Assembly: GCF_000497445.1 (NCBI RefSeq)
Contig: NZ_CM002285.1
Coordinates: 4,235,376-4,299,375, forward strand
Length of the DNA stretch: 64,000 nt
Direction of reading: 5' to 3'
Source of the DNA: Streptomyces roseochromogenus subsp. oscitans DS 12.976
GTDB lineage: Bacteria > Actinomycetota > Actinomycetes > Streptomycetales > Streptomycetaceae
Within the stretch, counting starts at the first letter, position 1; every line of letters begins with the position of its first letter. The notes beneath the pieces are model-generated. The model was not told the DNA's origin. It did not search any database and saw nothing but the letters and a program-made list of their open reading frames with translations. Below are positions 44,352 to 59,984 of this stretch, one piece after another. Made by a program: the position numbers and the translations under genes.

Positions 44352-44690
44352 TCAGGCGATCCGCAGCGCGGGAATCTCGGACGGGACCGGCATGACCGGC
44401 GCGGGGGCCGCGGCGGTGAACTGCGGGTCCACCGTGAGGGCGGTGACGCCGAGCGGGGCGGTCAGCGCGCGCAGGGCGGGCTCGGCGAGGCGGATCCACG
44501 CCTGTCCGGCGCCGAGCGTGGTGGTCAGCCGGCGCTCGGAGGTGAAGCCGACGGCCGTACGGTCGCCGAGCGGCGTGCGGAAGAGCCGGGCCGCACACCC
44601 GGAGGGCCCCGGCCGGACCGGGACGTACAGGAGTCCGGCCGGGAAAGGATCAGAGGGCTCGGGGTCTTCGCCGTAGCGGAGTTCTGCCAT
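44352..44690 (-). CDS. SAV_915-family protein
   Basis: 112 aa from ATG 44690. The family core is seen: DPFPAGLLYVPVRPGPSGCAARLFRTPLGDRTAVGFTSERRLTTTLG, then a helical Ala/Leu segment and the end VTALTVDPQF. Function is not known for the family. It is 13 bp upstream of the decarboxylase gene in the same direction and probably co-transcribed. A four-hexamer element at 44801-44849 lies 111 bp upstream, so this unit may share regulation with the potassium genes. Confidence 0.75.
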   Translation of the reverse strand: MAELRYGEDPEPSDPFPAGLLYVPVRPGPSGCAARLFRTPLGDRTAVGFTSERRLTTTLGAGQAWIRLAEPALRALTAPLGVTALTVDPQFTAAAPAPVMPVPSEIPALRIA

Positions 44691-44800: not shown

Positions 44801-44849
44801 CTGACGTGACGCTGACGCCGACCCGGACGACCTTGACGGCACGCTGACG
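44801..44849 (-). promoter_or_regulatory. Four-hexamer box 1 (proposed KdpE-type site)
   Basis: On the + strand CTGACG occurs at 44801, 44812 and 44844, and TTGACG at 44833. This is two direct-repeat pairs with 11-bp spacing, the pairs 32 bp apart. The same geometry occurs at 53780, 55801 and 59936. It lies between the divergent SAV_915/lysA unit (left) and the universal stress protein gene (right). Confidence 0.65.
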
Positions 44850-44962
44850 CCGCTGGCGGGAGTGGCTGGAAGGAGCCGTCAGAAGGGTGTCAGGAACGGG
44901 CGTTCGGGCTGTTCGAGAACGGCGCGGCGCGGTCTCATGGAAGGGATTTCCAGGAGGAGCTG

Positions 44963-45529
44963 ATGTCCGAGTACCGCCCGCCTGCGGCCGCCCGGGTCGT
45001 GGTGGGAGTGAGCGGCTCGCTGGGCGGTGCGACCGCCCTGAGCCGGGCCGCCGTGGAGGCCAGGCGCCGGGGAGCGGAGCTGTGGCCGGTGCTGGCGTGG
45101 GAGCCGCCGGAGGGGGATCTCGCCGCGCGCAGGTTCCCGGCGGCGACCGCCCTGGTCCCGGAGTGGGAGCGGCTGGCGCGCGAACGGCTCGTCGAGGCGC
45201 TGCGTGCGGTGTTCGGCGGCACGGACACCGGGCAGCCCGGACAGGCGCTGGTCGTCCGGGGCGCGCCCGGGCCTGCGCTGGTACGGACCGCGTCCCGCGA
45301 GGACGACATCCTCGTCGTCGGTGCGGGGCGGCGGGGCCGCCTTCACCGGGCACTGTGGCCGTCCGTCAGCCGCTACTGCCTCGCCCACGCGACGTGCCCG
45401 GTCCTCGCGGTGCCACCGTCGCCGTTGCAGGCGGAACTGACGGCCGTACACCGCCGGAACGCCTGGCGGCTGCGGCTGAACACCGGCCATCTGGAACGGG
45501 AGTTGCACATGGTGCCGCCGGAGTCCTGA
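44963..45529 (+). CDS. Universal stress protein family protein
   Basis: 188 aa, ATG with AGGAGCTG upstream. One Usp domain: VVVGVSGSLGGATALSRAAVEARRRGAELWPVLAW at the start and the nucleotide-binding loop VVGAGRRGRLHRALWPSVSRYCLAHATCPVLAVP near 115-148. The G-x2-G-x9-G pattern is present in the form G-R-R-G. A 40-residue C-terminal extension ending RLNTGHLERELHMVPPES is longer than the family norm. Usp proteins bind ATP and respond to stress. It converges on kdpD, and a four-hexamer box lies 114 bp upstream. Confidence 0.85.
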   Translation: MSEYRPPAAARVVVGVSGSLGGATALSRAAVEARRRGAELWPVLAWEPPEGDLAARRFPAATALVPEWERLARERLVEALRAVFGGTDTGQPGQALVVRGAPGPALVRTASREDDILVVGAGRRGRLHRALWPSVSRYCLAHATCPVLAVPPSPLQAELTAVHRRNAWRLRLNTGHLERELHMVPPES

Positions 45530-45637
45530 ACGGTTGCCACGCACACCGGTGCCGGCGGGGTGCCGCTCTCTGCGGGACGGTCGCCGCCCTGCGGTACGGC
45601 TGCCCGCGGCTACGGCGCGCATGAGGGTGCGGCGACT

Positions 45638-45680
45638 GCAACTCCCCAGGGGCGCGGGGAACTGCGCGACCAGCCCACGA
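45638..45680 (+). repeat. Ubiquitous Streptomyces intergenic repeat
   Basis: CAACTCCCCAGGGGCGCGGG followed by AACTGCGCGACCAGCCCACGA is the very common repeat between Streptomyces genes, here in the convergent space between usp and kdpD. Its inner part can fold (CCCCAGGGG). The rest of 45530-45686 holds no gene. Confidence 0.6.
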
Positions 45681-45686
45681 CTGCCG

Positions 45687-48224
45687 TCAGCCGCCCGACA
45701 CCACAAGCCCCCCAGGACGCTCGCGCTCCGGCGCGGTCGGGACAGCGAGCACCATGGTGAGACCCCCACCCGGCGTGTCCTCGGCGAGCAGCGTGCCGCC
45801 GACCGCCTCGGCGAACCCTCGGGCGACGGCGAGGCCCAGCCCGACCCCCACCCCCCGCGGAGCGTCCCCGTAGCGCTGGAAGGGTTCGAAGATGCGGTCC
45901 TTGGCCTCGTCCGGGACGCCCGGACCGCGGTCCACGACCCGCACCTCGACCCGGTCGGCGAGGGCGCTCGCGGAGACCAGGACCGGCTCCCCCGGCGGGC
46001 TGTACTTGACGGCGTTCTCGACGACGTTCGCGACCGCCCGCTCCAGCAGGCCCCGGTCGACGTACACCATCGGCAGGGTCTCGGGGATGTCCAGCTCCAC
46101 GCTGTCCTCGGGCACCCCGCCGAGCGCCATCGGCACGACCTCGTCCAGGTCGCTCTCCCGGATGATCGGGGTGACCGTGCCCGTCTGGAGGCGGGACATG
46201 TCCAGGAGGTTGCCCACCAGGTGGTCGAGCCGGTCGGCGCCTTCCTCGATGGCCTCCAGCAGATCCGCCTGGTCTCTCTCCGACCACTCGACGTCGTCCG
46301 AACGCAGCGACGTGACCGCGGCCTTGATACCGGCGAGCGGGGTACGCAGGTCGTGGCTGACGGCGGCCAGCAGAGCGGTGCGGATGCGGTTGCCCTCGGC
46401 CAGTTCCCCGGCCCGGTCGGCCTCGCGCTGCAGCCGCTGGCGGTCCAGGACGACGGCGGCCTGTGCGGCGAACGCGGCCAGCACCCGCCGGTCGGCGGCG
46501 GGCAGCACCCGGCCGCGCAGGGACAGGGCCATGTGGTCGCCGACGGGTACGTCGACGTCCGCGTCCTCCGGGATCCGCGCGGGCTCAGGGCCCACACTGC
46601 CGGCGCACGTCCACGGTGCCGTCTCGCCGGTCCGCTCCAGCAGGGCCACCGACTCCATCCCGAAGGTCTCGCGGACCCGCTCCAGCAGCGCCTCCAGGGT
46701 CGTTTCGCCGCGCAGGACGTGCCCGGCGAGGAAGGAGAGGATCTCCGACTCGGCGCGCAGCCGCGCCGCCTGATGGGTGCGGCGGGCGGCCTGGTCCACC
46801 ACCGAGGCCACGGACGCGGCGACGCCGAAGAACACCGCGATGGCGACGATGTTCTTCGGGTCGGCGATCGTCCAGGTGTGCACCGGCGGGGTGAAGTACC
46901 AGTTCAGCAGCAGCGATCCGACCACCGCCGAGGCCAGCGCCGGGAACAGGCCGCCGAGCAGGGCCGCCGCGACCGTCAGGGTCAGGTACAGCAGCATGTC
47001 GTTGGCGAGGCCGACGTCCGGGGCGGCGCCGGTGAGGAGCCAGGTGAGCGGGACCGGGCCGAGCACGCCCACGACCCAGCCCCAGATGACCCGGGGGCGA
47101 CCGAGCCGGGCACCGCGCGCCACCGGCAGTCCGCGGCCCTTGCCGACCTCGTCGTGGGTGATGAGGTGGACGTCGAGGTCGGGGCCGGAGTCACGCGCGA
47201 CCGTGGCGCCGACGCCGGGCCCGAAGGCGTACTGCCAGCTGCGGCGGCGGGAGACGCCGAGCACGATCTGGGTGGCGTTCACGCCCCGCGCGAAGTCCAG
47301 CAGGGCGACGGGTATGTCGTCGCCGACGACATGGTGGAAGGTGCCGCCGAGGTCCTCCACGAGGGTCCGCTGGACGGCCAGCTCCTTCGGGGAGGCCGAG
47401 GTCAGACCGTCGCTGCGGGAGATGTAGACGGCGAGCACCTCGCCGCCGGCGCCCTTCTCGGCGAGCCGCGAGGCACGCCTTATCAGGGTGCGCCCCTCGG
47501 GGCCGCCGGTCAGGCCGACCACGATCCGCTCCCGCGAACCCCAGATGGTCGACACCCGGTGCTCGCGTCGGTACTCGTTCAGATACTCGTCGACCCGGTC
47601 CGCCACCCACAGCAGGGCCAACTCCCGTAGCGCCGTGAGGTTTCCGGGCCGGAAGTAGTTGGACAGGGCCGCGTCGACCTTGTCCGGCTTGTAGATGTTG
47701 CCGTGCGCCATACGGCGGCGCAGCGCCTGGGGCGACATGTCGACCAGCTCGATCTGGTCGGCACGGCGTACGACCTCGTCGGGGACGGTTTCCTGCTGCC
47801 GCACCCCGGTGATCGACTCGACCACGTCGCCCAGCGACTCCAGGTGCTGGATGTTGACGGTCGAGATCACGTCGATCCCTGCGGCGAGCAGCTCCTCCAC
47901 GTCCTGCCAGCGCTTGGCGTTGCGCGAGCCGGGGATGTTGGTGTGCGGCAGTTCGTCCACGAGCGCCACCTGGGGGCGGCGCGCGAGGACGGCGTCCACG
48001 TCCATCTCGGTGAAGACGGTGCCCCGGTACTCCAGTTCCCTGCGCGGCACCTGTTCCAGGCCGTGCAGCATCACCTCGGTGCGGGGCCGGTGATGGTGTT
48101 CGACGAAGGCCACGACGCAGTCGGTGCCCCGCTCGATACGGCGGTGTGCTTCCGACAGCATCGCGTACGTCTTGCCGACGCCGGGTGCCGCGCCGAGGTA
48201 GATCCGGAGCTTGCCGCGTGCCAT
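45687..48224 (-). CDS. kdpD: KdpD sensor kinase of the potassium-responsive two-component system
   Basis: 845 aa. The N-terminal KdpD domain has Walker A GAAPGVGKT (11-19), then the Walker B-like VALVDELPHTN and the conserved VISTVNIQHLESL. A Usp-like domain follows (VVGLTGGPEGRTLIRRASRLAEK, about 230-370). Four short helices of the DUF4118 type span about 390-500 and a GAF-like segment about 520-620. The kinase core has VSHDLRTPLAGIKAAV, NVVENAVKYSPPG, DRGPGVP and GVGLGLAVARGFAEAVGG. It senses low potassium or osmotic stress and phosphorylates KdpE. It is transcribed after kdpE, 15 bp apart. Confidence 0.95.
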   Translation of the reverse strand: MARGKLRIYLGAAPGVGKTYAMLSEAHRRIERGTDCVVAFVEHHHRPRTEVMLHGLEQVPRRELEYRGTVFTEMDVDAVLARRPQVALVDELPHTNIPGSRNAKRWQDVEELLAAGIDVISTVNIQHLESLGDVVESITGVRQQETVPDEVVRRADQIELVDMSPQALRRRMAHGNIYKPDKVDAALSNYFRPGNLTALRELALLWVADRVDEYLNEYRREHRVSTIWGSRERIVVGLTGGPEGRTLIRRASRLAEKGAGGEVLAVYISRSDGLTSASPKELAVQRTLVEDLGGTFHHVVGDDIPVALLDFARGVNATQIVLGVSRRRSWQYAFGPGVGATVARDSGPDLDVHLITHDEVGKGRGLPVARGARLGRPRVIWGWVVGVLGPVPLTWLLTGAAPDVGLANDMLLYLTLTVAAALLGGLFPALASAVVGSLLLNWYFTPPVHTWTIADPKNIVAIAVFFGVAASVASVVDQAARRTHQAARLRAESEILSFLAGHVLRGETTLEALLERVRETFGMESVALLERTGETAPWTCAGSVGPEPARIPEDADVDVPVGDHMALSLRGRVLPAADRRVLAAFAAQAAVVLDRQRLQREADRAGELAEGNRIRTALLAAVSHDLRTPLAGIKAAVTSLRSDDVEWSERDQADLLEAIEEGADRLDHLVGNLLDMSRLQTGTVTPIIRESDLDEVVPMALGGVPEDSVELDIPETLPMVYVDRGLLERAVANVVENAVKYSPPGEPVLVSASALADRVEVRVVDRGPGVPDEAKDRIFEPFQRYGDAPRGVGVGLGLAVARGFAEAVGGTLLAEDTPGGGLTMVLAVPTAPERERPGGLVVSGG

Positions 48225-48239
48225 GTCGTTCCTAGGGGG

Positions 48240-48923
48240 TCATTCCTCGAAGCGGTAGCCCATGCCGGGCTCGGTGATCAGATAGCGGGGCTGGGAGGGG
48301 TCCGTCTCCAACTTGCGCCGGAGCTGGGCCATATAGACCCGCAGATAGTTGGTCTTGTTGCTCTGCGAGACCCCCCAGACCTCCTGGAGCAGCTGTTTCT
48401 GGGTGATCAGCCGGCCGGGGTGGGTGACCAGAATCTCCAGCAGATGCCACTCGGTCGGGGTCAGCCGTACGTCCCGCCCGGACCGTACGGCCTTCTTGGC
48501 GAGCAGGTCGAGGCTGAAGTCCGCCGTCTCGACCAGCGTCGTCTCGGGGACAAGCGGGGTGTCCCCGGTACGGCGGACCGCGGCCCGCAGCCGGGCCAGG
48601 AGTTCGTCCATGCTGAACGGCTTGGTGATGTAGTCGTCCGCGCCGGCGTCGAGGGCGGCCACCTTCTCGTCGGAGGCCTGCCGGGCGGACAGGACCAGCA
48701 CCGGCACACGGCTCCAGCCACGAAGACCCTTGATGACGTCGACGCCGTCCATGTCGGGCAGGCCGAGGTCCAGCAGGACCACGTCGGGCTGACGTGCGGC
48801 GGCGAGCCGCAGGGCCGTGGCACCGTCGGGGGCGGCGTCCACGCCGTAGTGCCGTGCCTGCAAGTTGATGACGAGGGCCCGTACGAGCTGCGGGTCGTCC
48901 TCCACCACGAGCACCCTGGTCAT
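48240..48923 (-). CDS. kdpE: KdpE response regulator
   Basis: 227 aa. The receiver has DD at 9-10, phospho-acceptor Asp52 in VVLLDLGLPDMDG, Ser in VLSAR and Lys in ITKPF. The winged helix contains LTPTEWHLLEILVTHPGRLITQKQLLQEVWG and SNKTNYLRVYMAQLRRKLE, the residues usual in KdpE, ending GMGYRFEE. It activates kdp transcription when potassium is low. It lies between kdpC (88 bp upstream) and kdpD. OmpR-family regulators bind direct repeats about 11 bp apart, which fits the boxes proposed in this window. Confidence 0.95.
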   Translation of the reverse strand: MTRVLVVEDDPQLVRALVINLQARHYGVDAAPDGATALRLAAARQPDVVLLDLGLPDMDGVDVIKGLRGWSRVPVLVLSARQASDEKVAALDAGADDYITKPFSMDELLARLRAAVRRTGDTPLVPETTLVETADFSLDLLAKKAVRSGRDVRLTPTEWHLLEILVTHPGRLITQKQLLQEVWGVSQSNKTNYLRVYMAQLRRKLETDPSQPRYLITEPGMGYRFEE

Positions 48924-49011
48924 GGGTGTGTGTCTCTCCTGTCATGGCTGCGGGAGCCGGCACCCCGAGTACCCCGAGGTGCCGGCTCCCGTTGCGAATC
49001 GCGTAAGGCCG

Positions 49012-49719
49012 TCACCTCTTGGCCACGAGGTCCTTGAGCGCGATGTTGAGTTCGAGGACGTTCACCTGCGGCTCACCGATGAAGCCGAGGGTGCGTCCCT
49101 GGGTGTTGTCCTTGACGAGCTTCTCCACCGCGGCGACGGACAGCCCGTTCTTCGCGGCGACCCGGTGGACCTGGAGTTCGGCGTACTCCGGGGAGATGGC
49201 CGGGTCCAGTCCGGAGCCGGAGGAGGTGACGGCGTCGGCGGGGACGTCGGACGGCTTGACCGTGTAGCCCGGGACGGAGTTGTCCTTGACCACGGCGGCC
49301 TTGGCTGCGAGCACCTGGGCGCAGAGCGTCTTGTCCGCGGGCTGGTCCGGGCACTTGCCGTTCACCGCGCCGCTGTCGGCGGAGAGGTTGGTGGCGCCCG
49401 ACACGAGCAGCTTGTACTGCGTGTTGACGCTGTTCGCGCCGAGGCCGTTGGCCGGGCGGCCCTGGAACCACTTCAGGTCCGGGTCCGGGGTGTCCTGGCC
49501 CTTCTTCAGCGGCAGGTTGTACGACTGCCCGATCAGGGACGAGCCGGCGACCTTGCCGTCCGCCTTGATCTCGGAGCCATTCGCCTTGTTGTTGAACAGC
49601 GCCTGGGCGATGCCGGTGACGACCAGCGGGTAGATGACGCCGGTCACCAGGGTCAGCACGAGGAGGGCCCTGAGGCCCGCCCCGAGCAACCGTGCGGTGT
49701 TCGTTACGGAGTTGTTCAT
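49012..49719 (-). CDS. kdpC: KdpC subunit of the high-affinity potassium ATPase
   Basis: 235 aa; a single N-terminal helix (LGAGLRALLVLTLVTGVIYPLVVTGIAQALF) and an external domain with KGQDTPDPDLKWFQGRPANG, PADAVTSSGSGLDPAISPEYAELQVHRVA and the C-terminal LGFIGEPQVNVLELNIAL, all hallmarks of KdpC. It stabilises the KdpFABC complex and increases its ATP affinity. It starts 5 bp after kdpB ends. An Asp/Ala/Lys-rich stretch of about 40 residues (NLSADSGAVNGKCPDQPADK) is an insertion common in actinobacterial KdpC. Confidence 0.95.
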   Translation of the reverse strand: MNNSVTNTARLLGAGLRALLVLTLVTGVIYPLVVTGIAQALFNNKANGSEIKADGKVAGSSLIGQSYNLPLKKGQDTPDPDLKWFQGRPANGLGANSVNTQYKLLVSGATNLSADSGAVNGKCPDQPADKTLCAQVLAAKAAVVKDNSVPGYTVKPSDVPADAVTSSGSGLDPAISPEYAELQVHRVAAKNGLSVAAVEKLVKDNTQGRTLGFIGEPQVNVLELNIALKDLVAKR

Positions 49720-49724
49720 GGCGA

Positions 49725-51863
49725 TCAGCCGATTCCGGGAATGAGGGAGATGAGCAGGTCGATGATCTTGATGCCGATGAAGGGCGCGATCAGGCCGCCG
49801 ATGCCGTAGATCCCGAGGTTGCGGCGGAGCATCTTGTCGGCGCTGAGCGGCCGGTACCGCACCCCCTTCAGGGACAGCGGCACCAGCGCGATGATGATCA
49901 GCGCGTTGAAGATGACCGCCGAAAGGATCGCGGAGTTGGGCGAGGACAGGTGCATGATGTTCAGCTTGTCCAGGCCCGGGTAGACCGCCGCGAACAGGGC
50001 CGGGATGATCGCGAAGTACTTCGCGACGTCGTTGGCGATGGAGAACGTGGTCAGCGCACCGCGCGTGATCAGCAGCTGCTTGCCGATCTCGACGATCTCG
50101 ATGAGCTTGGTCGGGTTGGAGTCGAGGTCGACCATGTTGCCGGCCTCCTTGGCGGCCGACGTACCCGTGTTCATCGCCACGCCGACGTCCGCCTGCGCGA
50201 GGGCCGGGGCGTCGTTCGTGCCGTCACCGGTCATGGCGACCAGCTTGCCGCCGGCCTGCTCCCGCTTGATGAGGGCCATCTTGTCCTCGGGGGTGGCCTC
50301 GGCGAGGAAGTCGTCGACGCCCGCCTCCTCGGCGATCGCCTTCGCGGTCAGCGGGTTGTCACCCGTGATCATGACCGTCTTGATGCCCATACGGCGCAGT
50401 TCCTCGAACCGCTCCCGCATGCCTTCCTTGACGACGTCCTTCAGGTAGATGACACCCAGCACACGGGCACCCTTGTCGTCGTTCACGGCGACCAGCAGCG
50501 GGGTGCCGCCCGCCTCGGAGATGCGGTTCGCGATCGTGTCCGCGTCCTCGGCGACGGTGCCGCTCTGCTCCTTCACCCAGGCGATGACCGAGGCCGTGGC
50601 ACCCTTGCGGATCTTGCGGCCGTCGACGTCCACACCCGACATACGGGTCTGGGCGGTGAACTCGATCCACTCGGCATGCGCCAGCTCGCCCTGGTGGCGC
50701 TCGCGCAGCCCGTACTTCTCCTTCGCCAGGACGACGATGGAGCGGCCCTCGGGGGTCTCGTCGGCCAGCGACGACAGCTGGGCCGCGTCCGCGACCTCGG
50801 CCTCCGTCGTACCGCGCACCGGCACGAACTCGGCGGCCTGCCGGTTGCCGAGCGTGATCGTGCCGGTCTTGTCCAGCAGCAGCGTGGAGACGTCACCGGC
50901 GGCCTCGACCGCGCGGCCCGACATGGCCAGCACGTTGCGCTGCACCAGGCGGTCCATGCCCGCGATGCCGATCGCGGACAGCAGGGCACCGATGGTGGTC
51001 GGGATCAGACAGACCAGCAGGGCGACCAGCACGACCATGGTCAGGTGCGTGTGGGCGAAGGTCGCGAACGGCGGCAGGGTCGCCACCGCCAGCAGGAACA
51101 CGATGGTCAGCGACGCCAGCAGGATGTTCAGCGCGATCTCGTTCGGCGTCTTCTGCCGGGCCGCGCCCTCGACCAGGTTGATCATCCGGTCGATGAAGGT
51201 CTCGCCGGGCTTCGTCGTGATCTTGATGACGATCCGGTCGGAGAGGACCTTCGTACCGCCCGTGACGGCCGAGCGGTCACCGCCGGACTCACGGATGACA
51301 GGGGCGGACTCACCGGTGATGGCCGACTCGTCCACCGAGGCGACACCCTCGACGACGTCACCGTCGCCGGGGATGATGTCACCGGCCTCGCACACCACCA
51401 GGTCACCGATGGTCAGCGCAGTACCGGGCACCTGCTCCTCGGACGTACCGTCCGCGAGCAGCCGGCGCGCGACGGTGTCGGTCTTGGCCTTGCGCAGGGT
51501 GTCGGCCTGCGCCTTGCCCCGGCCCTCAGCGACCGCCTCCGCCAGATTGGCGAAGATCACCGTCAGCCACAGCCAGGCGCTGATCGCCCAGCCGAACCAG
51601 TCGCCCGGGTGCTGGAAGGAGAAGACGGTGGTCAGGATGGAGCCGACCCACACCACGAACATCACGGGCGACTTGACCATCACCCGCGGGTCGAGCTTGC
51701 GGAACGCGTCCGGCAGCGACTTGACGAGCGCCTTGGGGTCGAAGAGGCCCGCTCCGACACGGCCCTCGTCAGGCTTGTGCCCGGTGGGGACGTCACTGTG
51801 CGGCGCCCGGGTGGGAGTGGCTGTGGACATGGAGTCCTCTGAGTTCTCTATGCGGGTGGTCAT
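49725..51863 (-). CDS. kdpB: KdpB catalytic P-type ATPase subunit
   Basis: 712 aa from the ATG overlapping the kdpA stop (ATGA, GGAAGGG 8 bases upstream); an in-frame ATG at 51830 with its own GAGG is an alternative. Phosphorylated Asp331 lies in [10 protein letters not shown]. The actuator motif is [14 protein letters not shown] (about 177-190) and the hinge motif [18 protein letters not shown]. The selectivity helix has [11 protein letters not shown], all as in potassium-transporting P-type ATPases. It hydrolyses ATP to drive potassium that enters through KdpA. All catalytic motifs are intact. Confidence 0.96.
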
Positions 51864-53524
51864 CACGCCAGCCCTTCCGCGAGCGGGCCGAGAGCCAGGG
51901 CCGGGAAGTACGTGAGACCGGTGATGATCAGGATCGCGCCGACGAGCAGGCCGGTGAACAGCGGCTTCTCGGTGCGCAGGGTGCCCGCGGTGACCGGGAC
52001 CGGCTTCTGCTCGGCGAGCGAGCCCGCCAGCGCCAGCACGAACACCATCGGCAGGAAGCGGCCGAGCAGCATCGCGAGACCGGTCATGGTGTTGAACCAG
52101 TCGGTGTTCGCGTTCAGGCCGGCGAAGGCCGAGCCGTTGTTGTTCGAGGCCGAGGTAAAGGCGTACAGGACTTCGGAGAAGCCGTGCGCGCCGGAGTTCA
52201 GCATCGAGTGCGGCGGAGTCGGCAGGGCCATGGAAGCCGCCGTGAAGACCAGCACCAGGGCGGGGGTGATGAGGATGTAGCAGGCGGCGAGCTTCATCTC
52301 GCGGCCGCCGATCTTCTTGCCCAGGTACTCGGGGGTACGGCCGACCATCAGACCGGCGATGAACACCGCGATGACCGCCATGATCAGCATGCCGTAGAGG
52401 CCGGAGCCGGTGCCGCCGGGCGCGATCTCGCCCAGCATCATGCCGAGCATCGCGATGCCGCCGCCGAGGCCGGTGAAGGAGGAGTGGAAGGAGTCCACCG
52501 CGCCGGTCGAGGTGAGTGTGGTCGAGGTCGCGAAGATCGACGAGGAGCCGATGCCGAAGCGGACCTCCTTGCCCTCCATCGCGCCGCCCGCGGCCTGCAG
52601 CGCCGCGCCGTGGTGGGCGAACTCGCTCCACATCATCAGCGCGACGAAGCTCAGCCAGATGGTGAACATCGTGGCGAGGATCGCGTAACCCTGCTTCACG
52701 TTGCCGACCATCACGCCGAAGGTGCGGGTCAGCGAGAACGGGATCACCAGGATCAGGAAGATCTCGAGGAGGTTGGTGAACGGCGTGGGGTTCTCGAAGG
52801 GGTGGGCGGAGTTGGCGTTGAAGTAGCCGCCACCGTTCGTGCCGAACTCCTTGATCGCCTCCTGCGAGGCCACCGCGCCGCCGTTCCACTGCTGCGAGCC
52901 GCCCATGAACTGGCCGACCTCGTGGATGCCGGAGAAGTTCTGGATGACGCCGCAGGCGACCAGGATCACCGCGGCGATCGCGGCACCCGGCAGCAGGATG
53001 CGCAGCGTGCCGCGCACCAGGTCGGACCAGAAGTTGCCCAGCTCACCGGTGCGCGAGCGGGCGAAGCCGCGCACGAGGGCGACGGCGACGGCCATGCCGA
53101 CGGCGGCGGAGACGAAGTTCTGCACGGTCAGACCGGCGGTCTGCACAACGTGCCCCATCGCCTGCTCGCCGGAGTACGACTGCCAGTTCGTGTTCGTCAC
53201 GAACGACACGGCCGTGTTGAACGACTGCGCCGGGTCGACCGACGAGAAGTTCATCGAGCCGGGCAGCACGCCCTGCAGCCGCTGCAGCAGGTAGAGGAAG
53301 AGGACGCTGGCGGCCGAGAAGGCGAGGACACCGCGCAGGTATGCGGGCCAGGTCATCTCGGTGTCGGCGTTGGCACCGATGGCCTTGTAGATCCACTTCT
53401 CGACGCGCAGATGCCCCCGCGAGGAGTAGACCTTGGCCATGTAGTTGCCGAGAGGAACGTAGGCGAGCGCCAGTGCGCCTATGAGGGCGAGCAGCTGGAG
53501 CACGCCGGCGAGTTCGGGACCCAT
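51863..53524 (-). CDS. kdpA: KdpA potassium-binding channel-like subunit
   Basis: 553 aa, with ten or more membrane helices. The start [27 protein letters not shown] is typical, and pore segments are visible as [26 protein letters not shown] with [34 protein letters not shown] and neighbouring glycine-rich loops. KdpA is related to Trk/Ktr channels and selects potassium outside the cell. The gene overlaps kdpB by one base pair pattern (ATGA) and begins 8 bp after kdpF. Length equals the family norm. Confidence 0.96.
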
Positions 53525-53532
53525 GTCTTGTC

Positions 53533-53622
53533 TCAGAACCTCTCCGGGTAGATCAGGGCGAGGACGAGGTAGCCCAGCAGGGCGACGGCCACGACCAGGC
53601 CGACAATGTTCTCGACGGTCAC
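53533..53622 (-). CDS. kdpF: KdpF small stabilising subunit
   Basis: 29 aa: one membrane helix ([26 protein letters not shown]) starting from GTG 53622. KdpF peptides of this length and the ending YPERF are standard in KdpFABC complexes, where the peptide fills a groove at KdpA. The start codon overlaps the stop of the preceding micro-ORF (GTGA), and kdpA begins 8 bp after the stop. Confidence 0.92.
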
Positions 53623-53702
53623 AGCTTCGTCACCCCCTTGGCGACGAGGGCCACCAGCGCGAAACCCGCGAGCACGGCGACGACGAAGGCCAGATCGGCC
53701 AT
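53619..53702 (-). CDS. 27-aa membrane micro-ORF leading the kdp operon
   Basis: ATG 53702 follows AGGAG by 6 bases. The peptide [20 protein letters not shown] plus AKGVTKL is one hydrophobic helix with a basic end. Its stop overlaps the kdpF GTG start, so it is coupled to kdpF. Good ribosome site, coupling and clean helix argue that it is a real gene. It may be a second small Kdp-associated subunit or a leader peptide that sets kdpF translation. Confidence 0.75.
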
Positions 53703-53779
53703 CGCGAACTCCTGGAGTGAGGTTCGGTTGAAACGGACGGTACGAGGAAAACGTCTCCTTGGCGGGATCCGGCCGCCCG

Positions 53780-53828
53780 TTGACGGGGCTCTTACGGGTG
53801 CCCGTATGGCTTTGACGGGACTCTTACG
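53780..53828 (-). promoter_or_regulatory. Four-hexamer box 2, kdp promoter (proposed KdpE site)
   Basis: The 17-bp units TTGACGGGGCTCTTACG (53780-53796) and TTGACGGGACTCTTACG (53812-53828) differ by one base and are spaced 32 bp; within each, the hexamers are 11 bp apart. They lie 78 bp upstream of the first micro-ORF of kdp. Position upstream of the classic KdpE target makes this the reference site for the motif. Confidence 0.75.
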
Positions 53829-53882
53829 CCGACTGCCCCCTACCGGCGGGTAAGGGACAGTGACCGTCGGTGACCTGGCTCA

Positions 53883-55724
53883 CTACAGCCGGAAGCGCAG
53901 CCGGCAGATCACCGCGTCCGTCTCCCGGCGCACCGCGTGTGCCACGACCGCGCCCCGCTGGTTCTGCAGCAGGCGCTGCCACAGCCGCTCCGGCTCGGCC
54001 TCCGGGATCAGCACCGTGACCTGGGTACCGGGCTCGGCGGCAGCCACCTCACGGACGTACGCGGCGATGGGGCGCCCGAGCGTGCGGCGCTGGCAGGACA
54101 GCCGTACCAGCGGCACCCCGGGGTCCCAGTCCGCCCAGGCGCGCTCCAGCGCGTGCAGGTGGGCCCGGTCCTCGGGGTCCGGATAGCACACGGTGACGGC
54201 CCGGACCTCGTCACCGAGGGAGGTGGCGGCGGTGAGCGCCTCCGAGGTCAGCCGGGACAGCGTGGACACCGGGACGACCACCAGCGAGCGCTCGCGGTGC
54301 GGGACCTCGGGGATGCGACCGAGCCCGAGCCGCTCGCCGATCCGGCCGTAGGCGCGGTGCACGGTCTCGAAGGCGGCCACCAGCAGCGGCAGGGCGATGA
54401 CGATCAGCCAGGCACCTTCCTCGAACTTGCTCGCCGTGACGACGACGGCGGCGACACCGGTGAGGACGGCACCGAACCCGTTGAGCAGCGCCTTCCCGCG
54501 CCGGCCCCGGCCCCGCTCCAGACGCCAGTGCCGGACCATGCCCACCTGGGCGATGGTGAAGCCGACGAAGACACCGATCGCGAACATCGGCACCAGGGTG
54601 TTGGTGTCACCGCCGGAGAAGACCAGCAGCGCGGCAGAGACGACGGCGAGCGCGAGGACGCCGTGCCGGTGCACCTGGCGGTCGGCCTTCAGCGCGAAGA
54701 CGTGCGGCGCGTAGTTGTCACGGGCGAGCAGCTTCAGCAGCACCGGCAGCCCGCCGAAGGAGGTGTTCGCGGACAGCGCCAGCAGGATCATCGTCGCGAA
54801 CTGGATGACGTAGAAAGCCCAGTTGTGGCCGAGCGCGGCGTCCGCGAGCTGGGCGAGGACCGTGACGCCCTCGACGGGCTGGAGGTGGAAGCGGCCGATC
54901 AGCACCGACAGGCCGATCAGCATCAGGCCGAGTACGGCGCCGAGGGCCACCTCCGCACGCTGGGCCCGGCGCACCCGCGGCACCCGGAAGGAAGGGACGG
55001 CGTTGGCGATGGCCTCCACGCCGGTCAGCGCGGCGCACCCGGAAGCGAAAGCTTTCAGCAGAAGGAGCGCGCCCACGCTGGAGGCGTTGTCCGCGACGAC
55101 GGAGGCGTGTCCGGCCGCGGTCACCGTGCTCACGGGGTGGGAGCGGAACAGCCCGACAACGATCAGTACGAAGACCGAGCCGACGAACACCACCGTCGGC
55201 ACGATGAACGCCTTCGCCGACTCCACGATGCCGCGCAGATTGACGCCCGTGATCAGCGCGAGCACCGCCAGGCACAGCCACAGCCGGTCGCCGTAGAGGG
55301 AGGGGAAGGCGGAGGTCAGGGCCGCCACGCCCGCGGTCACCGCGACCGCGACGTTGAGCACGTAGTCCAGCACCAGCGAGGCGGCGGCCACCAGGCTCGT
55401 GCGCGCGCCCAGATGCGTCTTCGCCACGGCGTACGACCCGCCGCCGTCCGGAAAGGCCGCGATCACCTGCCGGTAGGAGGCCACCAGCACCGCCAGCAGG
55501 GCGGCGATGGCCAGCGTGACCGGCATCGTGAAGCCGAGGCCGTGGGCGCCCGCGGCGGCGAGGACAAGGACGATCGCCTCGGGGCCGTAGGCCACCGACG
55601 CCATCGCGTCCAGCGACAGGGCCGCGAGCCCCGTGACGGCGGTCAGCCGGTGACGCTCGCCGGTATCAGGCGGCTCCTCGCCGGCGGGGACGGCATCCGG
55701 CTGCTCGGTGGTCAGGACGGACAT
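53883..55724 (-). CDS. kimA: KimA-like APC-superfamily potassium importer
   Basis: 613 aa from ATG 55724. The start TAVTGLAALSLDAMASVAYGPEAIVLVLAAAG and later SYRQVIAAFPDGGGSYAVAKTHLG, KAFASGCAALTGVEAIANAVPSFR and ANTSFGGLPVLLKLLARDNYAP closely follow Bacillus KimA (YdaO). Twelve helices run to about residue 450, then a cytosolic domain of about 160 residues (ERSLVVVPVSTLSRLTSEALTAATSLGDEVRAVTV) as in that family. KimA is a proton-coupled high-affinity potassium importer regulated by c-di-AMP in Bacillus. A four-hexamer box 77 bp upstream and the kdp genes next door support a potassium role here. Generic amino-acid permease is the alternative name. Confidence 0.85.
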   Translation of the reverse strand: MSVLTTEQPDAVPAGEEPPDTGERHRLTAVTGLAALSLDAMASVAYGPEAIVLVLAAAGAHGLGFTMPVTLAIAALLAVLVASYRQVIAAFPDGGGSYAVAKTHLGARTSLVAAASLVLDYVLNVAVAVTAGVAALTSAFPSLYGDRLWLCLAVLALITGVNLRGIVESAKAFIVPTVVFVGSVFVLIVVGLFRSHPVSTVTAAGHASVVADNASSVGALLLLKAFASGCAALTGVEAIANAVPSFRVPRVRRAQRAEVALGAVLGLMLIGLSVLIGRFHLQPVEGVTVLAQLADAALGHNWAFYVIQFATMILLALSANTSFGGLPVLLKLLARDNYAPHVFALKADRQVHRHGVLALAVVSAALLVFSGGDTNTLVPMFAIGVFVGFTIAQVGMVRHWRLERGRGRRGKALLNGFGAVLTGVAAVVVTASKFEEGAWLIVIALPLLVAAFETVHRAYGRIGERLGLGRIPEVPHRERSLVVVPVSTLSRLTSEALTAATSLGDEVRAVTVCYPDPEDRAHLHALERAWADWDPGVPLVRLSCQRRTLGRPIAAYVREVAAAEPGTQVTVLIPEAEPERLWQRLLQNQRGAVVAHAVRRETDAVICRLRFRL

Positions 55725-55800
55725 GGACGCGTGCTCCTTATTTCCTTGCGTGCGCGGGTGCACCCAGGTTCTGTCTGTTTACGCCCGAGTCCGACTTCTC

Positions 55801-55849
55801 CTTGCGGCATCTTCGCGCCCAACCGGTCGACCTTGACGTGATCTTGACG
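55801..55849 (-). promoter_or_regulatory. Four-hexamer box 3, upstream of kimA
   Basis: TTGACG at 55833 and 55844 form an exact 11-bp direct repeat. At -32 from each lie CTTGCG (55801) and TTCGCG (55812), degenerate versions of the upstream pair. The box starts 77 bp before the kimA start and has the same orientation to the gene as box 2. No c-di-AMP (ydaO) riboswitch was recognised here. Confidence 0.65.
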
Positions 55850-55866
55850 GGCTTCGGCCCGACACC

Positions 55867-56044
55867 TCAGCCCCTCCGGTTCTGCGGATGCGGCTGCACT
55901 CCCGTCATGAGGATGTCCACACCGCGCCGAGTCGTGGCCAGGACCACCCGGTCACCGGCCCGCGGCACCGACGGCCCCGACGGCGAGCACCCGCCACTCG
56001 TTCTCCCGGAACGCCTCGTGCACCGAGCGCCCCGGTGCGTTCAC
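55867..56044 (-). pseudogene. Short frameshifted remnant after the DUF4118 gene (RCK/TrkA-C-like tail?)
   Basis: A GTG overlapping the DUF4118 stop (GTGA) opens a frame reading VNAPGRSVHEAFRENEWRVLAVGAVGAAG that stops at once. The next frame continues GDRVVLATTRRGVDILM and then stops at 55867. The two together resemble the end of a TrkA-C/RCK domain (VLAV, then GDRVVLAT). It looks like a third cistron broken by one frameshift and shortened at its front. The family assignment is tentative. Confidence 0.35.
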
Positions 56045-56838
56045 CTCCGCGCCGGGCCCGCCGTGTCCAGCGCCGCCCCCGTCTGGTCGGCCAGGGTCAC
56101 CGCCACCAGGCGGGCCTGGAGCGGTAGTACGGGGCCCGGGCCGGGGGTGAGCATGAAGCGGCCGACGTAGTGGCCGTTGCCGTAGGTACGCAGCTCGATC
56201 TCGCCCTCGGGCCAGCCGTCGGTGTCCGGATTCCAGGTGCGCCGGCCCACCGTGACACCACCGTCCGTCTCCAGCCGCGGCGGCTTTCCCAGCAGGGTGC
56301 CGTACTCGAAGCGGCAGGCGCGCAGGCCGAGGAGTTCGGTCAGCTCGCGGCGGACGTGGTCCACCACGATGTCCGCGGAGTTTGCCGTCTTCGCGAGGTC
56401 CGCCGTGCGGTGGATGCGGGCGAGATGGGCCGCGTCGGTGACCGTGACGACCTCCAGCCGACGTGCCCGGGCGGCCAGTTGGGACACGAGGACGCCGACG
56501 GCCAGGAGCAGCACCGCCGTCTCGATGTCGGCGGACGCGGTGATGTCGAAGGTCTCGTACGGCCGTGTCAGGAAGAAGTCGAACCAAGCCGCCGCCGACA
56601 GGGCCGCGGCCACTCCCGCCGTACGGCTGCCGAGCGCGGCCACCGCGACGACCACCACGACGAGGATCAGCGCCGCGTTCGTGTGCGTCACGCTCGTACG
56701 GAACGGGACGAGAACGAGGGCCACCAGGAAGGGGGCGACGAAGGCCGCCGCCAGGGCGAGCCGGTCGCGCAACGGCCAGGCCCACACTACGCGGGCTTCC
56801 GTACGGAGCGGCTTCCAGATGCCGGTCACAGCGCTCAT
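56041..56838 (-). CDS. DUF4118 membrane sensor-like protein without a kinase domain
   Basis: 265 aa. Residues about 25-130 form the four-helix KdpD-type membrane module (LALAAAFVAPFLVALVLVPF, NAALILVVVVVAVAALGSRTAGVAAALSAAAWFDFFLTRPYETF, IETAVLLLAVGVLVSQL). Next comes a helical linker and a GAF-like domain (TADLAKTANSADIVVDHVRRELTELLGLRACRFEYG). There is no His-kinase or ATPase part. It starts inside the stop of the second KdpD gene (ATGA), so the two are co-translated. It may act as an additional membrane sensor or a modulator of that kinase. Confidence 0.8.
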   Translation of the reverse strand: MSAVTGIWKPLRTEARVVWAWPLRDRLALAAAFVAPFLVALVLVPFRTSVTHTNAALILVVVVVAVAALGSRTAGVAAALSAAAWFDFFLTRPYETFDITASADIETAVLLLAVGVLVSQLAARARRLEVVTVTDAAHLARIHRTADLAKTANSADIVVDHVRRELTELLGLRACRFEYGTLLGKPPRLETDGGVTVGRRTWNPDTDGWPEGEIELRTYGNGHYVGRFMLTPGPGPVLPLQARLVAVTLADQTGAALDTAGPARR

Positions 56839-59800
56839 CAAGGGCCTCCTACGCTCTGCTCGGACGCTTCGGCACCCACCCGCCGGCCCGCGAACGGCAG
56901 CGACACCACCATGGTGAGGCCGCCGCCCGGAGTGTCCTCGGGGCTGAGGGTGCCGTTCATCGCCTCGGTCAGGCCGCGCGCGAGGGCGAGGCCGAGGCCG
57001 AGTCCCGTGGTGTTGTCGGTGTCGCCGAGCCGCTGGAACGGCTCGAAGAGGCGGTCGCGGCCATCGGCGGGGAGTCCGGGCCCCCGGTCCACCACCCGCA
57101 GCTCCACCCGCCCGGCCAGGACACTGGCGGTCACCAGCACCTGTTTCCCGGGCGGGGTGTGCCGGGCGGCGTTGCCGACCAGGTTGGCGATCACCCGCTC
57201 CAGCAGCGGCGGATCGGCCAGCACCGCGGGGATGCCCTCCATGTCCGTCACCCGCACCCCGGGCACATCGGCCAGCGCCAACGGCAGCACCTCTTCCAAA
57301 GTGGTGGCCCGCAGGTTCAGGGTGAGGGCGCCCGCCTCCAGCCGGCTGAGGTCGAGGAGGTTCTCCACCAGGCGGTTGAGCTTGGCCATGGACTCGTCGG
57401 CGGTGGCGAGGAGCTCGTCGCGGTCCTCGTCGCTGAAGGCGACGTCGCGGCTGCGCAGCGAGGTGACGGCGGCCCAGCCGGCGGCCAGCGGCGTGCGCAG
57501 GTCGTGACCGACGGCCCGCAGCAGGGCGGTGCGCAGCCGGTCGGCGGCCTTCACGGGTTCCACTTCGGCGGCCGCCTCGGCCAGCCGGGCCCGCTCCACC
57601 GCCGAGCCGACGTGCGCGGCGAACGCGGCCAGGACGCGCCGCTCGGAGGAGGAGAGGGTACGACCGCGCAGCACCAGCCAGGCACCGGGGCCGGCGGGGA
57701 CGGCCGTGGCTCCGGCAGCATGGGAACCGGCCACGTGAGGCACGACCGTAGGGGACCCGCACGCATCGGCCCCGGCCACGTGGAGGCCGGCCGAAACGAA
57801 CACCGCCCCAGAGGAAGCGGAATGGAACCCGGCCGCGCGAGGCCCACCCGCCTCGGACCCGGCCGCGTGCGGCCCGGCCTCATGGGACCCGACCGTGTGG
57901 GACCCAGCCGCATCGGCCCCCGCCACGTAAGACCCACCCATATCAGCCCCGCCCACATGGGACCCAGCCCCATCGACCCCCACCACGTAAGACCCACCCG
58001 TATCGGCCCCGGCCACATGAGGCCCAGCCCCATCGACCCCGCCCACATGGGACCCAGCCCCATCGCCCCCGCCCACGCAAGACCCACCCATATCGGCCCC
58101 GCCCACATGGGACCCGGACGCGTGGGACCTGACCACGTGCGACCCGAACACCTGGGCCCCGCCCGCATCGAGCCCGCCCGCATCGAGCCTGCCCGGGTCG
58201 AGCCTGCCCGCATCGGGCCCGGCCGCGTCGGGTGGCTCGTCCACCAGGTCCGCCGACTCCATGCCGAAGGTCTCGCGGGTCCGCTCCAGCAGCGCCGGGA
58301 TGGTCGCCTCGCCGCGCACGATGCTGCCGGCCAGGGACGACATGGTCTCCGCCTCGGCCGTGGCCCGCGCGGAGCGGCGCGACAGCCGCAGGGAGCGGTC
58401 CACGACCGCGGCCACGATGGCCGCGACGACCGCGAACACCGTCAGCCCCACCAGGGCGTTGGGATCGTTCAGCGTGAAGGCACCGATGGGCGGGATGAAC
58501 CAGTAGTTGAGCAGCAGGGACGCCGTCACCGACGCGATCACCGCGGAGGCGACCCCGCCTATGCACGCCACGCCCACCACGGCCAGCAGGAACAGCAGGG
58601 CCTCGCTGGTCAGGTTCAGCGTGCCGCGCAACTGGGCGAGGAGGGCGGTGAGGAGCACGGGCAGCACCAGTCCGGCCACCGGTCCGGCGATCAGCCGGGC
58701 GGTCGACAGCGTGCGCCGCCTGGACGGCAGGAGGGTTCCGCGGCCGGCCCGCTCATGGGTGACCCGGTGGACGTCGATGTCCCCGGACAGCTCGGTGACC
58801 GTCTCCCCGGTGCCGGGCCCCGTCAGGAACCGCGTCAGCCGCCCCCGTCTGCTGGTGCCGAGGACCAGCTGGGTGGCGTTCTCGGCACGCGCGAACTCCA
58901 CCAGGGCGGTGGCCACGTCGTCGCCGACGACCGAGTGGTAGCTGCCGCCCAGGTCCTCCACGAGCCGGCGCTGCCGGGCCAGCGAGGCGTGCGAGACGCC
59001 GGCGGCGAGGCCGTCGCTGCGCGCCACGTGCACGGCCAGCAGATCCCCTCCCGCGGACCGGTCGGCGATCCGGGCGGCCCGCCGTACGAGCGTGTCGCCC
59101 TCGGGCCCGCCGGTCAGCGCGACGACGACCCGCTCCCGGGTCTCCCACACCCGCCCGATCCCGTGCTGCGACCGGTACTCCTGCAGGGCCTCGTCGACCC
59201 GGTCGGCCGTCCACAGCAGCGCCAGCTGGCGCAGGGCCTGAAGATTGCCGGGTCGGAAGTAGTTGGCGAGCGCGGCGTCGATCTTCTCGGGAGCGTAGAT
59301 GTTCCCGTGCGCCATGCGCCGGCGCAGCCCCTCGGGGGGCATGTCCACCAGCTCGATCTGCCAGGCGCGCCGTACGACCTCATCGGGCACGGTCTCGTGC
59401 TGCGGCACCCCCGTGATCTTCTCGACGACGTCGTTGAGGGACTCCAGGTGCTGGATGTTCAGCGCGGTGATCACCTCGATACCGGCGTCGAGCAGGGCCT
59501 CGATGTCCTGCCAGCGCTTGGGGTTGCGGCCCTCGCCGGGGACGTTGCTGTGCGCGATCTCGTCGACGATCGCCACCTGCGGCCGGCGGGTCAGGACCGC
59601 GGCCAGGTCCATCTCCTGGAACTGTCCCCCGCGGTAGCTGCAGCTCGCCCGGGGGACGGTGTCCAGGCCGTCGAGCATCGCCTCCGTGTGCGGGCGGCCG
59701 TGGCACTCCGCGAACCCCACCACCACATCCGCCCCGCGGGCGGCACGGCGCCGCCCCTCGTCGAGCATCCGGTAGGTCTTGCCGACCCCCGGGGCCGCGC

Positions 59801-59840
59801 CGAGGTAGACCTTCAGTCGTCCGGGCCGTACGTCACTCAT
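56838..59840 (-). CDS. Second KdpD-like sensor kinase with a repeat insertion
   Basis: 1000 aa from ATG 59840. The layout is that of KdpD: Walker A GAAPGVGKT (14-22), VITALNIQHLESL, a Usp-like domain (VVALTGGPEGDTLVRRAARIAD), and a membrane module with LNYWFIPPIGAFTLNDPNALVGL near 460. The kinase core has VGHDLRTPLAAGWAAV, NLVGNAARHTPPG, DRGPGLP and GLGLGLALARG. It differs from the first KdpD by an insert of about 175 residues (about 534-709) with five-residue periodicity in the GAF-like region before the kinase core. No response regulator gene is adjacent, so it may signal through KdpE. It is coupled to the DUF4118 gene. Confidence 0.9.
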   Translation of the reverse strand: MSDVRPGRLKVYLGAAPGVGKTYRMLDEGRRRAARGADVVVGFAECHGRPHTEAMLDGLDTVPRASCSYRGGQFQEMDLAAVLTRRPQVAIVDEIAHSNVPGEGRNPKRWQDIEALLDAGIEVITALNIQHLESLNDVVEKITGVPQHETVPDEVVRRAWQIELVDMPPEGLRRRMAHGNIYAPEKIDAALANYFRPGNLQALRQLALLWTADRVDEALQEYRSQHGIGRVWETRERVVVALTGGPEGDTLVRRAARIADRSAGGDLLAVHVARSDGLAAGVSHASLARQRRLVEDLGGSYHSVVGDDVATALVEFARAENATQLVLGTSRRGRLTRFLTGPGTGETVTELSGDIDVHRVTHERAGRGTLLPSRRRTLSTARLIAGPVAGLVLPVLLTALLAQLRGTLNLTSEALLFLLAVVGVACIGGVASAVIASVTASLLLNYWFIPPIGAFTLNDPNALVGLTVFAVVAAIVAAVVDRSLRLSRRSARATAEAETMSSLAGSIVRGEATIPALLERTRETFGMESADLVDEPPDAAGPDAGRLDPGRLDAGGLDAGGAQVFGSHVVRSHASGSHVGGADMGGSCVGGGDGAGSHVGGVDGAGPHVAGADTGGSYVVGVDGAGSHVGGADMGGSYVAGADAAGSHTVGSHEAGPHAAGSEAGGPRAAGFHSASSGAVFVSAGLHVAGADACGSPTVVPHVAGSHAAGATAVPAGPGAWLVLRGRTLSSSERRVLAAFAAHVGSAVERARLAEAAAEVEPVKAADRLRTALLRAVGHDLRTPLAAGWAAVTSLRSRDVAFSDEDRDELLATADESMAKLNRLVENLLDLSRLEAGALTLNLRATTLEEVLPLALADVPGVRVTDMEGIPAVLADPPLLERVIANLVGNAARHTPPGKQVLVTASVLAGRVELRVVDRGPGLPADGRDRLFEPFQRLGDTDNTTGLGLGLALARGLTEAMNGTLSPEDTPGGGLTMVVSLPFAGRRVGAEASEQSVGGP
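57715..58240 (-). repeat. Pentapeptide-periodic (15-bp) repeat tract inside the second KdpD gene
   Basis: About 35 units of a five-residue pattern near (A/G)G(S/A/P)(H/D)(V/M) are encoded, for example AGSHV GGADM GGSYV AGADA. At DNA level the unit is 15 bp and many neighbours differ by only a few bases, with near-identical 30-45 bp blocks (for example those around 57985 and 58045). The opposite strand is also an open Pro/His-rich five-residue repeat. It lies between KdpD domains that are otherwise ungapped. Confidence 0.88.
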
Positions 59841-59935
59841 CGCCGCCGACGCGCTCCGCTCACTGATCCAACTCCCCGTCACGGGAGGGTTTCTCCCTTC
59901 AAGGAAGCCGCTTCGCGGGGCGGCAGGTTCGATTG

Positions 59936-59984
59936 TTAGCGATTCTTTGGCGTCACCCCCGTGGACCTTGACGCTGTCTTGATG
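59936..59984 (-). promoter_or_regulatory. Four-hexamer box 4, between kdpD2 and the antiporter gene
   Basis: TTAGCG (59936), TTGGCG (59947), TTGACG (59968) and TTGATG (59979) repeat the 11/21/11 spacing seen at the kdp promoter. The box lies 96 bp upstream of the kdpD-like gene and 95 bp upstream of the divergent antiporter gene, so it could serve either. Confidence 0.6.

Follow-up and report, generated by a model that had tools for sequence, protein, structure and literature searches.

A phased four-hexamer element at potassium-related promoters of Streptomyces roseochromogenus as a predicted double operator of KdpE

The genome of Streptomyces roseochromogenus subsp. oscitans DS 12.976 includes a stretch of 64,000 bp (contig NZ_CM002285.1, positions 4,235,376 to 4,299,375), referred to here as the window, that carries kdpFABC with kdpD and kdpE, a kimA-like gene for a K+ importer, and kdpD2, which encodes a second KdpD-type sensor kinase. 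An earlier reading of the sequence alone (the sequence-only reading) had noticed TTGACG-like hexamers at offsets 0, 11, 32 and 43 at four promoters, and had proposed that they define a local regulon of the response regulator KdpE with two dimers per site. The questions raised by this locus are whether the repeated element is an operator, which regulator binds it, and how far its use extends. The results described below suggest that it is very probably a KdpE operator of two dimers, inverted with respect to that of E. coli, and that its use extends beyond a local regulon.

Sequence and spacing of the four sites

Direct reading of the sequence bore out the hexamers at offsets 0/11/32/43 in all four places: TTGACG/CTTACG/TTGACG/CTTACG at 53780, CTTGCG/TTCGCG/TTGACG/TTGACG at 55801, TTAGCG/TTGGCG/TTGACG/TTGATG at 59936 and CTGACG/CTGACG/TTGACG/CTGACG at 44801. 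The four sites are on one strand and have, as had been claimed, the same orientation to a leftward gene, which by eye starts 76-110 bp away (kdpF at 53702, kimA at 55724, kdpD2 at 59840 and the SAV_915-domain gene at 44690; the 77-111 bp given before differ by one through counting). The site at 59936 is located in the intergenic region common to kdpD2 and a divergent antiporter gene, and that at 44801 in the region common to the SAV_915-domain gene and the divergent universal stress protein gene usp. The half-site score, computed on both strands, was devised with the consensus already seen, and therefore an independent test was carried out with a dimer matrix trained on 60 dimers from the kdp promoters of 30 relatives, the window being left out. 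The predicted operators are listed with the matrix scores of their pairs.

53780..53828, minus strand: predicted operator of kdpFABC, CGTAAG-N5-CGTCAA-N15-CGTAAG-N5-CGTCAA on the coding strand; 29.7 bits (53812) and 25.4 bits (53780), both pairs strong
55801..55849, minus strand: predicted operator of kimA; distal pair CGTCAA-N5-CGTCAA, 16.5 bits (55833); degenerate proximal pair CGCGAA-N5-CGCAAG, -13.2 bits
59936..59984, minus strand: predicted operator of kdpD2; CATCAA-N5-CGTCAA, 8.5 bits (59968), followed by the weak pair CGCCAA-N5-CGCTAA, 0.1 bits
44801..44849, minus strand: predicted operator of SAV_915-lysA; 18.8 bits (44833) and 7.9 bits (44801), all four hexamers near the consensus

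Six of the eight dimers occupy ranks 1-4, 7 and 8 among the matrix matches on both strands of the window, and the proximal pairs of kimA and kdpD2 fail this kdp-trained matrix. On the half-site score the four sites reach 21.6, 21.6, 19.6 and 18.9, versus 15.9 for the best unrelated place in the window; the only other places above 15.9, 53748 and 44769, are two of the sites shifted by 32. None of 80 strands shuffled in 4-base blocks reached 18.8, and the null, 718 windows of 400 bp taken from coding sequences of relatives, had a maximum of 17.0.

Conservation and distribution

Conservation of the kdp promoter was studied in the best 80 of 591 relatives, which were not picked by the motif. They include a near set of 32 loci (L025-L056, 76-92% KdpA identity) and a distant set of 47 loci (L058-L104, 61-68% identity), which includes six Streptomyces kdp copies and of which 46 have enough upstream sequence; L057 was excluded because its upstream region reads N. 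The four-hexamer layout scored at least 21 of 24 in 30 of the 32 near loci, and 20 at the same place in L054. Each upstream region was also asked for a unique best spacing, out of 13 for half-sites and 49 for dimers, leaving out 21, 22, 42 and 43, which arise as by-products of the two periods. A half-site spacing of 11 bp was the unique best in 32/32 near and 29/46 distant loci, and a dimer spacing of 32 bp in 31/32 near and 36/46 distant actinobacterial loci. All four counts fell to 0 inside kdpA (0/78 stretches at 32 bp), while on the opposite strand they were 2/32 and 12/46 for 11 bp and 5/32 and 6/46 for 32 bp. The genera whose kdp loci have layouts scoring at least 19.5 include Mycobacterium, Nocardia, Actinomadura, Streptosporangium, Nonomuraea and Microbacterium; several other loci score only at the null level.

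TTGACG resembles the consensus of −35 promoter elements, and the hexamers could be such elements or chance occurrences on a G+C-rich strand. This explanation is hardly credible in view of the fixed 11/21/11 spacing across many genera, the strand asymmetry, the absence of the layout inside kdpA and the 80 shuffles without a comparable score; half-sites such as CGTAAG or CGTATG, furthermore, are unlike a −35 element.

The other three promoters keep the layout in syntenic relatives as well (kimA 11/12, kdpD2 8/8, SAV_915 7/8, in a scan for the best layout that had no separate null), and in the twelfth syntenic kimA locus, L053, it is visible in the printed sequence. The degenerate form of the proximal pair at kimA and kdpD2 is itself conserved in relatives. 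Searching 80 other genomes for kimA yielded 23 near-full-length matches with at least 75% identity, of which 19 were analyzed as orthologues in 900-bp stretches. Every one of the 19 exceeds the null maximum, with scores of 17.7-19.7 in the 520 bp upstream of the gene, and in 18 of them a spacing of 32 fits the dimers best. A layout on the opposite strand scoring 17.6-21.6 was present in 10 of 20 kimA stretches; in three of the syntenic loci (L043, L044 and L046) the divergent gene at this place encodes a small membrane protein that by eye is like the one found beside another Usp gene, described below. In 13 of the 19, kdpE and kdpA are both remote from kimA, on a different contig or at a distance of over 1 Mb, with the limit that in the drafts G048, G059 and G062 the contig with kimA stops after 5-45 kb and the kdp genes may be linked beyond that point. 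The persistence of the layout at kimA where the kdp genes are unlinked speaks against the view that the common layout arose simply by local duplication. A KimA paralogue of 55-56% identity (one of four) scores 13.3, below the null maximum. At the promoter of the core KimA, which has 38% identity, single dimer-like matches of 8.4-14.9 bits were observed about 205-220 bp upstream in 4 of 12 cases (L133:6768, L134:6770, L135:4719 and L136:7429).

The sequence-only reading had named occurrence of the motif at random frequency genome-wide as the result that would speak against it. The strict motif does not behave in this way. In the 9.78-Mb genome YTKACG-N5-YTKACG has 24 matches versus 3 for the reversed pattern, and 8 of the 24 are concentrated within 23 kb at the cluster, 5 of them inside the window. 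In 41 genomes the strict form CGTMWGRRNNSCGTCAA has 90 matches versus 10 reversed, although 8 of the 41 lack it. Fifty-five of the 90 are at most 15 kb from a KdpE gene or a gene for a KimA of at least 55% identity, regions that make up about 0.65% of the sequence (57 when the G001 KimA fragment is counted), and all 11 pairs of matches less than 200 bp from each other have a spacing of exactly 32 bp. From the 35 distant matches, 20 regions covering 21 of them were inspected, and they included three kdp loci (L165, L173 and L182), one SAV_915-lysA locus (L180) and four loci with the Usp gene and the membrane protein gene (L170, L171, L174 and L175). Other neighbors of distant matches were genes for BaxI, a lipase, an AA-permease and a Band_7 protein. 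Strict matches at L164:1484 and L176:1469 are near orthologous ORFs, and the ORF of L164, a possible target, matches UbiE-type methyltransferases.

Within this genome a complete fifth site was located at window coordinate 65415 (genome 4300790), 1.4 kb beyond the end of the window. On one side it is flanked by a masked stretch, beyond which a gene of the GlnX family is located, and on the other by an orphan KdpB paralogue gene. As determined by position arithmetic on 71 relaxed matches, 44801, 53780 and 65415 are the only places genome-wide where two dimers are exactly 32 bp apart. CGTMWGRRNNCCGTCAA has four exact matches in the genome, two at kdp, one at the fifth site and one at 8127449 (L021), upstream of a small membrane protein gene that adjoins a Usp gene; this is the only strict match outside the cluster to which a target was assigned. 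The orphan KdpB paralogue (L105:2001-4265, genome 4301001-4303265) is 69% identical to KdpB and matches TIGR01497 with 998.7 bits; no other kdp reference gene was matched in 20 kb around it, parts of which read N, and it has a dimer-like match of its own upstream (L105:1855, 12.9 bits). The GlnX-family signal-transduction membrane protein (window 62610-63980) matches NF058618 with 247.7 bits, just below the cut-off of 250.

The motif is also found at the core kdpDE operon. KdpE is detected at E<=1e-60 in 79 of 81 Streptomyces genomes, mostly as a form 72-81% identical to the window protein, and this genome has a second KdpE that is 76% identical to that of the window. Twelve core kdpDE loci of 11-15 kb were analyzed, and in 10/10 of those that include the start of kdpD the top matrix match of the locus is 78-143 bp upstream of that gene. 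It consists of a single dimer, CATCAG-N5-CGTCAA in seven and CGTCAG-N5-CGTCAA in three, which predicts autoregulation. Sites at the core kdpDE operon, at unlinked kimA genes and at the membrane protein gene indicate that the proposed regulon is not only local. The 76% identical protein of the core genome could be the main binder and the cluster copy redundant or a fine-tuning one. The near universality of the core form in Streptomyces, the persistence of the kimA site where no KdpE gene is near kimA, the KdpE contact residues (see below), intact in both proteins of this genome, and the same dimer at the core kdpDE promoter agree with this idea, whereas kdpE follows kdpC in many near kdp loci, and the core promoter has a single dimer with CATCAG as first half-site in 7/10, which may mean a different preference. 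On balance we regard it as rather unlikely.

KdpE as candidate binder and possible mechanism

KdpE as the binder of these sites is suggested by homology and by a characterized mycobacterial site. The kdpE gene of the window is located beside kdpD and kdpFABC and its product has receiver and Trans_reg_C domains. The residues equivalent to the E. coli KdpE DNA contacts R193, R200 and T215 are conserved in 27/27, 27/27 and 25/27 aligned KdpE proteins, respectively, a set that includes those of E. coli and the window. For KdpE of Mycobacterium smegmatis, footprinting and gel shifts mapped binding to the 22-bp sequence CCGTAAAGAAACCATCAAGGCC of kdpFABC, which the authors did not find noticeably similar to other KdpE sites (PMC5401905). 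This site, CGTAAA-N5-CATCAA, belongs to the same half-site family as the coding-strand motif of the window kdp promoter, with the same 11-bp spacing and orientation. The cited part of that report maps one dimer and mentions no target other than kdpFABC, while at the window kdp promoter a second unit is found 32 bp away. Furthermore, by eye its reverse complement, TTGATG-N5-TTTACG, resembles the KdpE site of E. coli kdpFABC, TTTATA-N5-TTTACA (PMC3264566; structures 4KNY, 4KFC and 3ZQ7), so that the mycobacterial and enterobacterial sites, published as dissimilar, could be united as one motif on opposite strands. The E. coli K-12 motif precedes kdpF by 99 bp and is on the coding strand (L106), and its polarity is thus opposite to that of the actinobacterial sites: the E. 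coli hexamers read toward the gene and the actinobacterial hexamers away from it. The site described in E. coli is also a single dimer, versus the two predicted at the window kdp promoter.

A second KdpE-like repeat, TTGATGGTTTATTTACA, is present in E. coli K-12 about 188 bp before kdpF, between kdpF and ybfA. By eye it shares 15 of 17 positions with the reverse-complemented M. smegmatis site and it could serve ybfA; a literature search on ybfA and KdpE found no test of this repeat or of ybfA as a KdpE target.

Since OmpR-family regulators bind direct repeats (PMC3264566) and KdpE has MtrA and PrrA among its relatives, another member of the OmpR/PhoB family, such as MtrA, PhoP or GlnR, could be the one that uses the 11-bp repeats. 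The clustering of strict matches around kdp, kimA and kdpDE, the presence of the motif at kdpDE itself and the same repeat in the KdpE-bound site of M. smegmatis make this improbable. The identification of the element as a KdpE operator, and with it the proposed regulon with two dimers per site, is supported by phylogenetic footprinting across relatives, the M. smegmatis site, the contact residues and the core kdpDE site.

Several observations weigh against this identification. The KdpE model (NF007820) is the best of 104 NCBIfam families for the window protein, with 242 bits versus an equivalog cut-off of 325. The gene-proximal hexamers at 55801 and 59936 are poor matches, and these degenerate pairs might bind nothing. 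The kdp promoter of L053 is the one of the 32 near loci without the layout, and in 10 of the 46 distant loci the best dimer spacing is not 32. The four-part site was discarded for the core KimA promoter, where none of 12 cases came above the null maximum (17.0) and the highest score was 15.3. In the genus-wide scan, 12 of the 20 distant regions inspected had no convincing target, among them L163, whose only common feature with the Usp/membrane protein locus is a flanking ORF. Only the strict forms of the motif are informative: relaxed YTKRCG-N5-YTKRCG gave 71 matches in the genome versus 94 reversed and CGTMWGRRNNCCGTCAA with 2 mismatches 212 versus 171, both dominated by noise, and the strict dimer showed no clear excess in ten other actinobacterial genomes (87 versus 76 reversed). 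In addition, unpublished data mentioned in a 2023 review (PMC10117811) indicate that KdpDE is dispensable for development of S. venezuelae and for growth in 0.5 M NaCl or KCl.

In the mechanism that we propose for the KdpE operator, one dimer would bind each 17-bp unit, CGTMAR-N5-CGTCAA, head to tail on half-sites 11 bp apart, and the 32 bp between units, about three helical turns, would place two phosphorylated dimers on one face of the DNA. Located just upstream of the promoter, they would switch on transcription of the gene that follows under K+ shortage. A TANNGT-like element is found 27-29 bp after the proximal unit in four of five membrane protein promoters (39 bp in the fifth), and by eye TAACGT is at a similar distance at SAV_915; at this distance the proximal dimer would lie directly against the promoter. 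The predicted targets are kdpFABC, kimA, kdpD2, SAV_915-lysA and the fifth site beside the orphan KdpB paralogue, and, elsewhere in the genome, core kdpDE, which would be autoregulated, and the small membrane protein gene beside another Usp gene. The combination of two strong pairs at kdp versus a strong and a weak one at kimA and kdpD2 predicts graded activation. One signal probably switches on several K+ importers and the second sensor together. This agrees with part of the link drawn by the sequence-only reading; the stress protein that it also included is not a demonstrated target because the 44801 site faces SAV_915-lysA. More broadly, and as a tentative view for which we see somewhat less than an even chance, Actinobacteria may have an ancient phased double operator, with a polarity opposite to that of E. 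coli and therefore a different face contacting RNA polymerase, in which the strength of the proximal pair would order Kdp, KimA, the second KdpD and accessory proteins, and the sensor-regulator pair would regulate itself.

Control by c-di-AMP was considered as well. In Bacillus, kimA is among the importers controlled by the c-di-AMP riboswitch. A riboswitch at the kimA gene of the window was rejected in the absence of any family match in an Rfam scan of the window at gathering thresholds. The Bacillus riboswitch controls K+ importers (PMC6488665), which are likewise coordinated at transcription, whereas control in the window appears to be response-regulator-based. Control through the Usp domains of the KdpD proteins is not supported: by eye, neither has the motif (A/G/C)XSXSX2N(Y/F) of c-di-AMP-binding KdpD (PMC8214093): KdpD1 reads YISRSDGL, in which SXS is present and the A/G/C and N positions are not, and KdpD2 reads HVARSDGL, in which even the first S of SXS is absent.

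According to the 2023 review (PMC10117811), KdpDE has not been analyzed in any Streptomyces model. The operator type is known; among the matches listed in our literature search, neither the double, phased, inverted architecture nor a Streptomyces KdpE regulon was found. The analysis provides a defined candidate operator whose predicted targets comprise K+ importers of two kinds, the second sensor, kdpDE itself through autoregulation and the membrane protein encoded next to a Usp gene. It also makes a precise prediction of the architecture, with phasing of 32 bp and an inverted polarity.

Genes of the cluster and the small membrane protein

The genes of the cluster are listed by position.

43004..44338, minus strand: lysA-like PLP decarboxylase, presumably co-transcribed with the SAV_915-domain gene
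44355..44690, minus strand: SAV_915-domain protein gene, first after the 44801 site
44963..45529, plus strand: usp, universal stress protein, divergent from the SAV_915-domain gene
45687..48224, minus strand: kdpD, sensor kinase (matches to KdpD, Usp, DUF4118, HisKA and HATPase domains)
48240..48923, minus strand: kdpE, response regulator with receiver and winged-helix DNA-binding domains
49012..49719, minus strand: kdpC
49725..51860, minus strand: kdpB, exact start codon not fixed
51863..53524, minus strand: kdpA
53619..53702, minus strand: kdpF-like reading frame of 27 amino acids at the head of the operon (sequence read by eye)
53883..55724, minus strand: kimA-like K+ importer gene (Pfam AA_permease_2; the name KimA is that of the sequence-only reading)
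56838..59840, minus strand: kdpD2, second full KdpD-type sensor kinase of 1000 amino acids, with HDLRTP at 779
60079..61653, plus strand: CPA1-type Na+/H+ antiporter gene, divergent from kdpD2

Residues ~540-708 of KdpD2 form a stretch that is unaligned with its orthologues among the matches listed. The small membrane protein encoded beside a Usp gene (L021:904-1644; also in L170, L171, L174 and L175) had no Pfam family match in the two versions scanned, those of L171 and L021. It is a conserved protein that starts with MEH or MER, and its gene has a KdpE-type site upstream and a TANNGT element close to the ATG.

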